64,000 nt of DNA from positions 1 through 64,000 of the forward strand of contig JAGQVX010000003.1 of the NCBI GenBank assembly GCA_020437755.1. Reading direction: 5' to 3'. The notes under the pieces were generated by a model. That model did no database searches. It worked only from the letters and a program-made list of their open reading frames with translations, and was not told the DNA's origin. Made by a program: the position numbers and the translations under genes. Source of the DNA: Flavobacteriales bacterium. GTDB taxonomy: Bacteria; Bacteroidota; Bacteroidia; Flavobacteriales_D; Sanyastnellaceae. Positions 17,319 to 54,010 of the stretch are shown here, in pieces. Each line of letters starts with the position of its first letter. The first letter of the stretch is position 1.

Positions 17319-17852
17319 TTGACTGAAAAGGAGCTGATTGAGCGCGCTCAGCACGACCGGCGGGCCTTCGGAGTGATCTATGAAGCTCATTTTGAAGGTT
17401 TGTTCCGGTTTGTACTCAAGCGTGTTTCCGATCGACAACTGACATCCGATTTAGTGTCGCAAACATTCGTGAAAGCCATGCTGAGCCTGAATACTTACAC
17501 GTATACGGGCGTGCCTATTAAAGCATGGCTGTACCGCATAGCGATCAATGAGGTCAATATGTACTTTCGTGAGAATAAACGTGTGCACCATGTTCAGCTT
17601 TCGGAATCGTTGATTTCCGGGCTGTCACAGGAATTGGAAGAAAGCGGCATTCGCCAAATGCAATTCGAGCGTGTCGTAGCTTCACTCAACACGCTCGAAG
17701 AACAGGAGGTACTGCTTATTGAACTTCGATTTTTCGAAGGGATGCGATTCCGGGAGATGGCTGAAGTTTTGGGAAGTTCTGAAGACGCGGTTAAAATGAA
17801 GACACACCGTGTGCTGAAGCGCTTAAAATCCGTTATTTTGACGCAGGGATGA
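17319..17852 (+). CDS. ECF-type RNA polymerase sigma factor
   Basis: The 177-residue sigma-70-family factor has region 2 (ARAFGVIYEAHFEGLFRFVLKRV through KAWLYRIAINEVNMYFRENKR). Region 4 runs from LEEQEVLLIELRFFEGMRFREMAEVLGSSEDAVKMKTHRVLKRL. The start is TTG at 17319, since no ATG is available in frame near the conserved N-terminus. The stop overlaps the next start as ATGA, so the small membrane protein after it is translationally coupled and is a candidate regulator. Residues around 112 are encoded within a CATTTG mini-hairpin. Confidence 0.92.
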   Translation: MTEKELIERAQHDRRAFGVIYEAHFEGLFRFVLKRVSDRQLTSDLVSQTFVKAMLSLNTYTYTGVPIKAWLYRIAINEVNMYFRENKRVHHVQLSESLISGLSQELEESGIRQMQFERVVASLNTLEEQEVLLIELRFFEGMRFREMAEVLGSSEDAVKMKTHRVLKRLKSVILTQG

Positions 17853-48929: not shown

Positions 48930-48946
48930 ATTGTTCTGGATACAAT
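48930..48946 (+). promoter_or_regulatory. Operator palindrome ATTGT-N7-ACAAT, copy C
   Basis: A perfect palindrome with spacer TCTGGAT; two more pairs extend it to ATATTGT...ACAATAT. Centre-to-centre distance from copy B is 28 bp, close to three helical turns, so two dimers could bind the same face. Confidence 0.6.
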
Positions 48947-48984
48947 ATCCCCTTATTACTGTATGTCAACTATATATAAGTATC

Positions 48985-51186
48985 ATGAAACCAAAATTAT
49001 TTACAATTTGTTTGACCTTGTTGGCTGCTTTTGGACTTTCACTCGAAAGTGCTTCAGTTGATTTAGTCAATCTTACGTTCGACGATGCTTCTTCAACTTC
49101 AGCATGGTCTGAAGTCGCAGACGCTGTTCTTCCAGAGGCCGTTTTGGCCTGGAATGCCGCCGGTGTGACTACCGGTGCACTTGATATTTCGGGAACCAAT
49201 TCCGGAGCATCAGGAAAGGCCTATATATTCGAGTATCTCGATACAGGGCTGGATTATCAGGGTTCTTCCAACGTTACCCTGACCTTTGATATTAAGGTAT
49301 CAGCACCCCTTAACGGAGCGGCTGTTCACCTGCAAAATGAGTTCCCGGGCCTGGGAACGGTCAATACCTTTGATCTCCAGACTATGGGAATCAATGAGTC
49401 TACCTGGACTACATTGTCATTCAACTTCTCAGGAGTTGGAGCGGGCAACATTTTCCGAATGCACTTCAATATTGCAGCCGGCGCATTCGTCGGTGCTGGA
49501 GGTGGCCTGCTCATCGATAACATTGTCCTCAGTGGTGACGGTACCGGCGGTGGCGGCGGAGGAGCTCTTCTCGTAAATGTAGAAGTGTGCGACCCTGCTA
49601 CCGAAGTACGTATGACAGGCCCTTGGTGGGGCTGGGATCCTGCGGGTGGTCCTATTGCCGTAGATAACGGTGATGGTACGTGGACCTTTACCTTGGATCC
49701 TGCGCCAACAGCTACTATGGAATACCTCATTGTAGTGGATGGTGTTCAGGAAAACCTGATCACCGAAATGCAAAACGGCGGTACTTGTGCCCCCATTACA
49801 GACTTCGCAACTTATGCGAATCGTCAGTGGCTCACCAGCGATCCTCTCACGGTTAACATCGTGTATGGCCTGTGCGGAAACTGTGCCGGTATTGATGAAT
49901 TGATCATTACTACTGAAGTGTGTGACCCCGCTACTGAAGTGCGAATGACCGGTCCATGGTGGGGCTGGGACCCTGCGGGTGGACCCATTGCCGTTGACAA
50001 CGGAAACGGAACGTGGACATTTACCTTGTCGCCCGCTCCAACTGCCGACATGGAATACCTCCTCGTAGTAGATGGCGTTCAGGAAAACCTCGTTGCTGAA
50101 ATGCAAAATGGCGGTACGTGTGCGCCAATTACGGATTTCGCTACATACGCCAATCGTCAGTGGCTCACTACGGATCCTTTGACCATCAACAATACCTACG
50201 GTCAATGCGGCGTGTGTAACCCTCCTGCCGATCTGATCATGACTACTGAAGTGTGCGTAGCTGCTTCAGAAGTACGAATGACCGGTCCATGGTGGGGCTG
50301 GGATCCTGCCGGTGGTCCGGTAGCTGCCGACAACGGTGATGGCACCTGGACTTTCACATTCTCGCCAGCACCTACTGAAAACATGGAATACCTTCTGGTA
50401 GTAGATGGTGTTCAGGAAAACCTGGTTGTCGAAATGCAGAACGGTGGTACATGTGCTCCACTTACCGACTACTCAACCTATGCTAACCGTCAGTGGTTGC
50501 TTACCGATGGATACAACGTGTCAAATACATACGGACAATGTTCGGCTTGTGTGACCGCTTCTGATTTGATCATTGTGACTGAAGTTTGCACCTCGGCAAC
50601 CGAGGTTCGCATGACTGGTCCATGGTGGGGCTGGGATCCAGCCGGAGGTCCGGTTGCAACCGATAACGGCGATGGAACATGGACGTTTACCCTTTCACCT
50701 GCACCTACTGAAAACATGGAGTACCTCCTCGTAGTTGACGGTGTTCAGGAGAACCTCGTTGCGGAAATGCAAAATGGTGGAACCTGCGCTCCAATTACTG
50801 ATTTTGGAACCTATGCCAACCGCCAGTGGTTGCTTACCGATGGTTACATGATCAACAACACCTACGGAAGCTGTTCAGGCTGTGACTGTCTGGCTGATAC
50901 CGATGAGGATGGATTGACCGACTGTGACGAGATCGATATCTACATGACCGATCCAAACGACCCGGATAGTGATAACGACGGACTTACAGATGGATTGGAA
51001 GTGAACGTTTCCGGAACTGACCCGAATCTCGTTGATACCGATAACAACGGTTGTGATGACCCAACAGAATTCAGTCAGGCATGTCCAGGACAACAGACAT
51101 GTGCTGGTGATTTCAATGAAGATGGAATTGTAAATAGCGCGGATTTGCTTTTGTTCCTTGGAACATTCGGCAATACCTGCAATTAG
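48985..51186 (+). CDS. Secreted four-repeat CBM-like protein with TSP3 and dockerin-like tail
   Basis: The 733-residue protein has a signal (MKPKLFTICLTLLAAFGLSLE), a CBM-like jelly roll (residues 25-190, LVNLTFDDASSTSAW ... GGLLIDNIVLSG) and a Gly-rich linker. Then come four copies of the same 110-residue repeat found in the divergent gene. The end has calcium-type thrombospondin-3 repeats (DTDEDGLTDCDE, DPDSDNDGLTDG, DTDNNGCDD) and one dockerin-like motif (GDFNEDGIVNSADLLLFLG). No T9SS domain is visible, so its export or anchoring route differs from its partner. Confidence 0.83.
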   Translation: MKPKLFTICLTLLAAFGLSLESASVDLVNLTFDDASSTSAWSEVADAVLPEAVLAWNAAGVTTGALDISGTNSGASGKAYIFEYLDTGLDYQGSSNVTLTFDIKVSAPLNGAAVHLQNEFPGLGTVNTFDLQTMGINESTWTTLSFNFSGVGAGNIFRMHFNIAAGAFVGAGGGLLIDNIVLSGDGTGGGGGGALLVNVEVCDPATEVRMTGPWWGWDPAGGPIAVDNGDGTWTFTLDPAPTATMEYLIVVDGVQENLITEMQNGGTCAPITDFATYANRQWLTSDPLTVNIVYGLCGNCAGIDELIITTEVCDPATEVRMTGPWWGWDPAGGPIAVDNGNGTWTFTLSPAPTADMEYLLVVDGVQENLVAEMQNGGTCAPITDFATYANRQWLTTDPLTINNTYGQCGVCNPPADLIMTTEVCVAASEVRMTGPWWGWDPAGGPVAADNGDGTWTFTFSPAPTENMEYLLVVDGVQENLVVEMQNGGTCAPLTDYSTYANRQWLLTDGYNVSNTYGQCSACVTASDLIIVTEVCTSATEVRMTGPWWGWDPAGGPVATDNGDGTWTFTLSPAPTENMEYLLVVDGVQENLVAEMQNGGTCAPITDFGTYANRQWLLTDGYMINNTYGSCSGCDCLADTDEDGLTDCDEIDIYMTDPNDPDSDNDGLTDGLEVNVSGTDPNLVDTDNNGCDDPTEFSQACPGQQTCAGDFNEDGIVNSADLLLFLGTFGNTCN
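49564..50880 (+). repeat. Four tandem coding repeats of about 331 bp
   Basis: Units begin near 49567, 49900, 50230 and 50563. They are the same domain as in the leftward neighbour, so the two genes form a long imperfect inverted repeat centred on the 279-bp intergenic region. Confidence 0.85.
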
Positions 51187-52719: not shown

Positions 52720-53352
52720 TCAGGCGAAGCGCACTTCGCTTATCCATTTGCCGGATGGCTGAAACACGTTGAATTCTTCCCTTCTTATCCGATAATATAC
52801 CGAGGGCTCACCTCCGCACGGACCTTCTTTGTAATACGTCATGCCTATGCGTTTCATGACCTCGAAAGACGCTTTGTTCTGTGGGAATGCGCGGGCAATG
52901 ATTTCCTTGAATTGGAAATGATTGAAGGCAGTCGCCAAACAAGCATAAGAGGCTTCCGTAGCATAACCGTTTCCCCACTCGCTGCGCAAAAAGCGGTAGC
53001 CGAGATCAATAAAATCTTCTTCCTCATGATACTTGAGACCACACCAACCCAGCGGTTTTTTAAGGTCTGTTAGCTCAACCAACCACCGGCCAAATCCGTG
53101 TTTCACGAAGTGATCATACGACTTGACAAAAAGTTGGGCCTCCTCCAATGAACAAAAATTATGTTCACCTGTATATAACATGACTTCAGGGTCATTATTA
53201 AGATGAAACAGGAATGAAGCGTCTTCTTCATGCCATTCTCTCAAGGTCAGACGATGGGTATAAATGTGCAAGGTATTGAGATTCAATGGGTGTGCTAAAG
53301 GAAGCAAAAAATTGTTGACCGTTTTGTGACTTTGCAAAAAAGACCACGTCAT
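52720..53352 (-). CDS. GNAT acetyltransferase, RimJ/RimL type
   Basis: The 210-residue protein has the RimJ/L pattern: THRLTLREWHEEDASFLFHLNNDP, then DLGYRFLRSEWGNGYATEA (acetyl-CoA loop) and RAFPQNKASFEVMKRIGM. The ATG at 53352 is used; a GTG at 53373 would add 7 residues. These enzymes acetylate N-termini, antibiotics or metabolites; the substrate here is unknown. A CATTTG mini-hairpin with GGAT loop lies in the last codons (52745-52759). Confidence 0.87.
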   Translation of the reverse strand: MTWSFLQSHKTVNNFLLPLAHPLNLNTLHIYTHRLTLREWHEEDASFLFHLNNDPEVMLYTGEHNFCSLEEAQLFVKSYDHFVKHGFGRWLVELTDLKKPLGWCGLKYHEEEDFIDLGYRFLRSEWGNGYATEASYACLATAFNHFQFKEIIARAFPQNKASFEVMKRIGMTYYKEGPCGGEPSVYYRIRREEFNVFQPSGKWISEVRFA

Positions 53353-53406
53353 AACTTGCGTGGATACGACCACAATATGACCAAATACGGCCTTGCTGCC
53401 GTGAAT

Positions 53407-53487
53407 AAGAATGTGCGGGGAAAATGTGGCTAGACATTTACAAAAGGTTCACTGAAGGGAGAGATCAGTGAATGCCCCGCACATTTT
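53407..53487 (+). ncRNA. Candidate structured RNA: three-way junction upstream of ndk
   Basis: Three nested stems fit one fold. P1 is AATGTGCGGGG (53410-53420) with CCCCGCACATT (53475-53485), 11 pairs. P2 is AAATGT/ACATTT (53422-53427, 53434-53439) with loop GGCTAG. P3 is TTCACTGA/TCAGTGAA (53448-53455, 53465-53472) with a 9-base loop. Joining strands are 1, 8 and 2 bases. A T-rich stretch follows on the plus strand. There is no open frame. It could be an sRNA, a leader of the leftward acetyltransferase, or a DNA-level element; the strand is a guess. Confidence 0.5.
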
Positions 53488-53550
53488 ACTTTTCTTCCTT
53501 TTATTTCCAAATTCCCCTGCTTCTGCCTTTCCAGACTTTTCACTTATTTG

Positions 53551-53558
53551 TACTTTTG
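53551..53558 (+). promoter_or_regulatory. Promoter -7 box for ndk
   Basis: TACTTTTG matches TAnnTTTG and ends 29 bp before the ATG of ndk. It lies downstream of the three-way junction, so that structure is not in the ndk leader made from this promoter. Confidence 0.55.
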
Positions 53559-53587: not shown

Positions 53588-54010
53588 ATGGCTGGAAACA
53601 AGACATTTACCATGATCAAGCCGGATGCAACAGGCGCTGGTCATACCGGAAAAATTATCGACAAAATCATTGAAGCAGGATTCAGCTTCAAGGCGATGAA
53701 GTGGACTCAACTTACCACTGCCGATGCTCAACAATTCTACTTGGTTCACAAAGATCGTCCGTTCTACGGCGAACTCGTGGAGTACATGACTTCAGGACCT
53801 ATCGTTGCTGCGATTCTTGAGAAAGACAATGCAGTTGCTTCATTCCGCGAATTAATCGGCGCTACCAATCCGGCAGAAGCTGCTGAAGGTACTATCCGAA
53901 AAATGTTTGCTACGTCCATTGCTGCAAATGCCGTTCACGGTTCCGACAGCGATGAGAATGCTGCTATTGAAGGAAGCTTCTTCTTCTCGCAGCGCGAGCG
54001 CACATTGTAA
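53588..54010 (+). CDS. ndk: Nucleoside diphosphate kinase
   Basis: Ndk transfers gamma phosphates among nucleoside triphosphates through a phosphohistidine. The start at ATG 53588 gives [14 protein letters not shown] and 140 residues, the normal size; a longer frame to 53468 is not conserved. The active-site histidine is in [14 protein letters not shown]. The N-terminal KPDAT and the loop with GPIVAAIL are as expected. icd follows after 55 bp with no terminator. Confidence 0.96.

Follow-up and report, generated by a model that had tools for sequence, protein, structure and literature searches.

Between a GNAT acetyltransferase gene and ndk, this Flavobacteriales genome carries a conserved structured element that we interpret, with a probability of roughly 0.7, as an ECF-sigma-dependent small RNA gene of about 140 nt belonging to an envelope-stress-type regulon. 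The RNA would be read from the plus strand, from 53357 to about 53500 of the window (the whole stretch of 64,000 nucleotides that was analysed), and made from its own ECF-type promoter. That the structure belongs to a real conserved RNA gene is close to certain. The RNA is a family missing from Rfam and previously uncatalogued. Sequence evidence covers its conservation, covariation, promoter motif, co-occurrence with a motif regulon and independence from ndk; what we infer in the model is transcription with its start and end, the sigma factor involved, the inducing stress and action in trans.

Fold and conserved anatomy

The first-pass annotation drew a three-way junction here, and the DNA at 53410–53485 does fold that way, with helices and joints where they had been placed. 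P1 has 11 contiguous pairs, its 5′ strand at 53410–53420 (AATGTGCGGGG) facing its 3′ strand at 53475–53485 (CCCCGCACATT); P2 has six (53422–53427 with 53434–53439) and P3 eight (53448–53455 with 53465–53472), all on the plus strand, and the joints are 1, 8 and 2 nt long, the sizes first reported. In the MFE structure P1 gains two outer pairs, one G-U and one A-U, and reaches 13. The MFE is −34.1 kcal/mol, versus −15.65 ± 2.76 in dinucleotide shuffles (z −6.68), and none of 200 shuffles matched it. The minus strand folds equally well (z −6.74). Folding alone therefore gives no strand, and direction needs other evidence. The T-rich tract noted at first pass is present on the plus strand 3′ of the structure, at 53484–53506, and together with P1 may form a terminator tail. 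The element has a copy number of one in its genome.

P1 and P3 prove to be held by compensatory changes across genera. In A5, a clean alignment of eight representatives, 89% of the cells of inner P1 and P3 are paired and 11 of the 14 pairs show two-sided changes. Inner P1 pairs covary, and all eight pairs of P3 have two-sided changes across genera. The covariation score of A5 is 0.605, versus 0.294 ± 0.040 for shuffles and at most 0.289 for slid controls. RNAalifold, unaided, arrives at the same helices. The outer P1 sequence varies by genus; a long closing stem is still found in most single folds, and the full-length stretch of G025 has an MFE structure without the conserved helices.

Two short sequences are nearly invariant among members, the P3 loop (G/U)GGAGAG and the motif GUGGCUA. 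The conserved apical loop lies at 53457–53464 (+) and reads GGGAGAGA, or UGGAGAGA in G001 and G081; GUGGCUA, at 53426–53432 (+), is identical in all eight representatives of A5. The three-way junction itself did not hold up as a conserved feature. P2 as drawn is kept only within the genus of the window, in two genomes; at its position there is another hairpin in genus g11, a marginal one in G016 and none in the others. Where this arm is open or different, only the sequence GUGGCUA stays. The conserved anatomy thus consists of an extended closing stem, a side that is left open and bears GUGGCUA, and a hairpin (P3) with a GGGAGAG heptaloop.

Distribution, promoter motif and predicted transcript limits

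Homologues were reached by several independent routes, which supports a real RNA. Searching 60 relatives at the DNA level turned up a single clear homologue, which belongs to the genus of the window. The 5′ sides of ndk in relatives held diverged homologues from several genera, in which the stems differ, the loop GGGAGAGA is the same and GUGGCU is mostly the same. A covariance model built without P1 (R1) found more members among 114 genomes of the family, and a model that includes inner P1 (R2) was run over 399 genomes of the order. Strong R2 members (E ≤ 3e-14) occur in family f1 only, in genera g1, g2, g6, g12 and g16. By covariance models the RNA is present in 10 genomes of one family, with diverged forms in g11 and g18. 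The R2 match in g18 is weak; it and the g11 members linked to ndk reach 29–31 bits, and a search of small size gave E-values between 3e-6 and 1e-5. MAFFT alignments that included the long-P3 g11 members (A1–A3) placed the loop wrongly. Models were therefore built from alignable members, and g11 and g18 were scored afterwards. The 399 genomes of the order yielded no convincing R2 member outside f1, and in most genomes of the family the RNA was not found.

Species genomes of GTDB were also scanned for the promoter, GTGGCT and GGAGAG in that order, which returned 13 stretches. Eight come from Flavobacteriales/Cryomorphaceae MAGs; seven of these appear to be carriers found before, and the one new stretch, JAGYJM010000002, has the sequence found in G081. 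The five non-Flavobacteriales stretches are without the conserved hairpin and were rejected; roughly ten would be expected by chance. Weak model matches in f3, f9 and G060 (L161–L164) were likewise set aside, as they are without the structure and look like chance in coding sequence. In both g12 genomes (L061 and L062, 1501–1537), GTGGCTAAACTGAAA lies directly 5′ of a terminator-like hairpin, AAAGGTCTCC...GGAGACCTTTTCTTTT; this site is a weak model match, perhaps by chance. Two copies of TCTCTCCCTAGAAAATG, 177 bp apart, occur at G012:C1:959724-959917 (L205), and TCTCTCCCTAGTAAATG at G002:C33:6711. These sites are possibly a small repeat or paired leaders.

Upstream of the structure, at 53325–53350 (+), is TGTGACT-N15-CGTC, an exact motif whose −35 and −10 boxes have 15-nt spacing. 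It is very likely an ECF-type promoter, to judge from its sequence. TGAAAC-N16-CGTC is a promoter type of Bacillus sigma-M, and TGTGACY/CGTC boxes resemble ECF promoters. A study of F. psychrophilum recognised ECF promoters by their CGT −10 box (PMC9723704). Each of the 10 strong members has the exact TGTGACY-N15-CGTC upstream of the RNA, at 64–83 nt from GUGGCUA in the nine measured (the tenth, in G081, was seen separately). The rough chance of one such match in a 20-nt interval is about 1e-5 per sequence. Promoter spacers are unrelated between genera, and an A-rich stretch usually lies 5′ of the motif. Among the 13 matches in the window with two or fewer mismatches, the promoter of the RNA is the sole exact one. 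The diverged g11 and g18 members are without the exact promoter: G030 has a version with two mismatches, and none was seen in G011 and G034.

The orientation of the promoter assigns the RNA to the plus strand and predicts a start near 53357, some 7–8 nt past CGTC. The predicted 5′ part of the transcript (53357–53409, +) varies in sequence between genera and here contains a small hairpin by folding, at 53387–53402. The long P1 would close and stabilize the RNA, and the transcript would end at or just past it. In some genera P1 may double as an intrinsic terminator. A U-tract after P1 is clear in g2, g6, g12 (G012 and G031) and g11, and is absent in G016, G033 and G081; in G033 a second strong hairpin and its T-run lie further downstream. 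A simple terminator scan missed P1 and its T-tract because it accepts loops of 3–8 only.

The motif regulon and a candidate sigma locus

The promoter motif was counted in 60 genomes by its exact pattern only, and the reversed pattern served as control. Nine of the genomes carry both RNA and promoter; they have 51 motif sites versus 20 for the control, and the other 51 genomes have 24 versus 48. In this sample the carriers have 4–10 sites per genome and the non-carriers 0–3 (Fisher p 5e-6, or 1e-4 without the RNA's own site, the relatedness of carriers being uncorrected). Genes downstream of the motif include a YugP-type Zn peptidase in three genomes, MscL in two, and also an M48 lipoprotein peptidase, OmpA-type proteins and beta-barrel proteins. 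In seven genomes it precedes a secreted coiled-coil protein, whose ATG usually falls 22–30 nt past the motif. This protein has about 190–260 aa (L064, L065, L090, L095, L099, L106, L109), and the two members scanned had no Pfam match. It is probably the best marker gene of the regulon. The motif itself probably marks an envelope-stress regulon. Two genomes of another family, f8 (G053 and G059), have three motif sites each (for example TGTGACTTTTTCCGATGTCCACCGTC), and the RNA was not found there; this family may have the regulon without the RNA.

The motif also accompanies a gene for a large secreted protein (MRKLLC...) that diverges from an ECF sigma gene. This arrangement occurs in G000, G001, G002, G012 and G031 and spans genera g1, g2 and g12. 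A transmembrane anti-sigma-like gene follows the sigma gene in G000, G002 and G012, where sequence was read. At G000:C234 (L086 1–3026; L171), and in L169 and L170, the operon runs from the ECF sigma gene through the transmembrane anti-sigma-like gene to a surface/adhesin-like gene, and in G000 and G001 the initial codons of the sigma gene share their DNA with the motif, which is read from the other strand. Among the ECF genes of G000, the C234 gene is alone in having the motif nearby, whether exact or with one mismatch. In G006, G016, G025 and G033 no clear orthologous ECF operon was found beside the motif. On this gene arrangement, the C234-type sigma is the best candidate for the cognate factor of the RNA promoter. 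The genome has 23 Sigma70_r2 matches; one more ECF sigma gene with this domain (L134) lies in the window at 17376–17582, and the motif is not near it. Release of the sigma factor would lead to synthesis of the RNA alongside periplasmic and membrane quality-control proteins.

Alternatives, targets and known systems

ndk (NDK, PF00334) occupies 53588–54010 (+), with its ATG at 53588, and is a neighbour outside the RNA unit. On the other side is the divergent GNAT acetyltransferase gene (PF13302; 52720–53373, −), whose true start is probably nearer 53250–53295 because the domain begins at residue 41. Further off, 48931–51186 of the window encodes a large protein that looks secreted; it has four repeats that are nearly identical (EVRMTGPWWGWDPAGGP...) and, by eye, a thrombospondin/dockerin-like C-terminal part. 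The first-pass annotation offered a choice between a small RNA and a leader regulator, and of these the small RNA is the better guess. A cis-acting ndk leader, that is, a riboswitch or attenuator in which P1 and the U-tract gate transcription into ndk, would agree with the location of the RNA, directly 5′ of ndk and codirectional in most carriers, and with the T-tract that follows P1 in several genera. It is nevertheless improbable. G006 and G025 keep both RNA and promoter but have an FtsX/MacB-type permease gene in the place of ndk; G081 shares its upstream neighbour with G006, and there ndk follows the RNA. Since the downstream gene is swapped and the RNA kept, the RNA is independent of ndk, as read from gene order. 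Moreover, between the RNA and its ATG ndk has its own −7-type box, TACTTTTG (53551–53558, +), which was correctly placed downstream of the structure at first pass and is separate from the RNA promoter; TAnnTTTG is the consensus given for flavobacteria (PMC9723704). What is conserved, besides, is the loop of a hairpin plus an open motif, and no sign was seen of a conserved alternative pairing that could act as an antiterminator. That this is a diverged 6S RNA, or a housekeeping RNA of another kind, is very improbable. Being compact, conserved and single-copy would fit, but the proposed Infernal search of Rfam gave zero matches for the stretch at E ≤ 10, including 6S-Flavo (RF01685) and Flavo-1, and there was none anywhere in the window. 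Conservation here does not concern a long hairpin with a central bubble, as 6S has; the RNA was not found in most of the family, and an ECF-type promoter does not suit a housekeeping RNA. A search for 6S-Flavo in nine genomes found no match anywhere, with the controls silent too. Least credible is a chance or mobile palindrome (REP-like, a DNA cruciform or a decaying repeat): the stem is long and GC-rich and sits in an AT-rich gap between genes, which could suggest one, but REP-like elements have many copies per genome where this has one in its own, and from genus to genus it holds its position, shows compensatory changes and has a fixed promoter.

For the small RNA, the likely contacts are GUGGCUA and the P3 loop GGGAGAG, either to other RNAs in the manner of MicA and RybB or to a protein. 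Action in trans through base pairing is about an even bet, by analogy, and is preferred over protein binding only because of the likeness to RybB and MicA. The complement of the loop, TCTCTCCC, occurs within 30 nt of an ATG 129 times in four genomes, versus 44 for the reversed pattern. Nearly all of the 112 distinct sites fall within reading frames or precede doubtful ones, and they have no gene in common. The excess is taken as an effect of composition or frame. The octamer complementary to the loop marks neither an evident group of start sites nor a target common to the four genomes. In G012 and G031 (L072, L112), TCTCTCCCCC, complementary to the loop GGGAGAGA, lies between the motif and the MRKLLC start; TCTCTCCC also stands before this sigma-adjacent gene in G012 and G031, and neither sequence was seen there in G002, G000 and G001. 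That loop and GUGGCUA bind a protein rather than mRNAs, as an RNP or a sponge, is rather unlikely. Two short near-invariant sequences on variable helices, and a loop complement without enrichment at target starts, would fit such binding, but gene context points to no partner and CsrA, the best-known partner of GGA loops, was found in 0 of 40 relatives searched, where the controls were detected. A CsrB/RsmZ-type CsrA sponge is rejected on this search of 40 relatives.

Small RNAs that brake the synthesis of envelope proteins are standard in the enterobacterial sigma-E response. Bacteroidota have many ECF factors and few known sRNA mechanisms. A partial literature search, which is weak evidence, found no ECF-sigma-dependent sRNA reported for the phylum. 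Perhaps this is the first ECF envelope-stress sRNA of Bacteroidota, an independent analogue of MicA and RybB with the GGGAGAG heptaloop as contact site, a tentative proposal whose odds are somewhat short of even. If it is true, the RNA may be the RNA arm of a Bacteroidota stress response. RNA, promoter, regulon and candidate sigma locus together make the question of ECF-dependent sRNAs in Bacteroidota directly testable.

RybB and MicA, sigma-E-dependent sRNAs of enterobacteria, reduce omp mRNAs during stress (PMC1804206). The likeness to them would be that of a small RNA within an ECF-sigma envelope-stress regulon. The differences are that no relation is detected via Rfam, that the promoter here is TGTGACY-N15-CGTC, and that the conserved sequences here lie in the loop of a hairpin and in an internal motif. 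Rfp18 of Flavobacterium psychrophilum is an independently transcribed, structured and genus-conserved flavobacterial sRNA, which the present RNA would resemble if transcribed as predicted; an ECF promoter is not reported for it in the available part of the source, and the two are compared by description (PMC9723704). SM6, an ECF promoter motif of F. psychrophilum, is described with a regulon of T9SS and Band-7 genes, and the available part of that description reports no small RNA. BatR of Bacteroides thetaiotaomicron resembles this RNA in being a Bacteroidota sRNA that acts on cell-surface genes, but it has a −7 promoter box and another architecture, in which the seed is freed by processing (PMC10861873).
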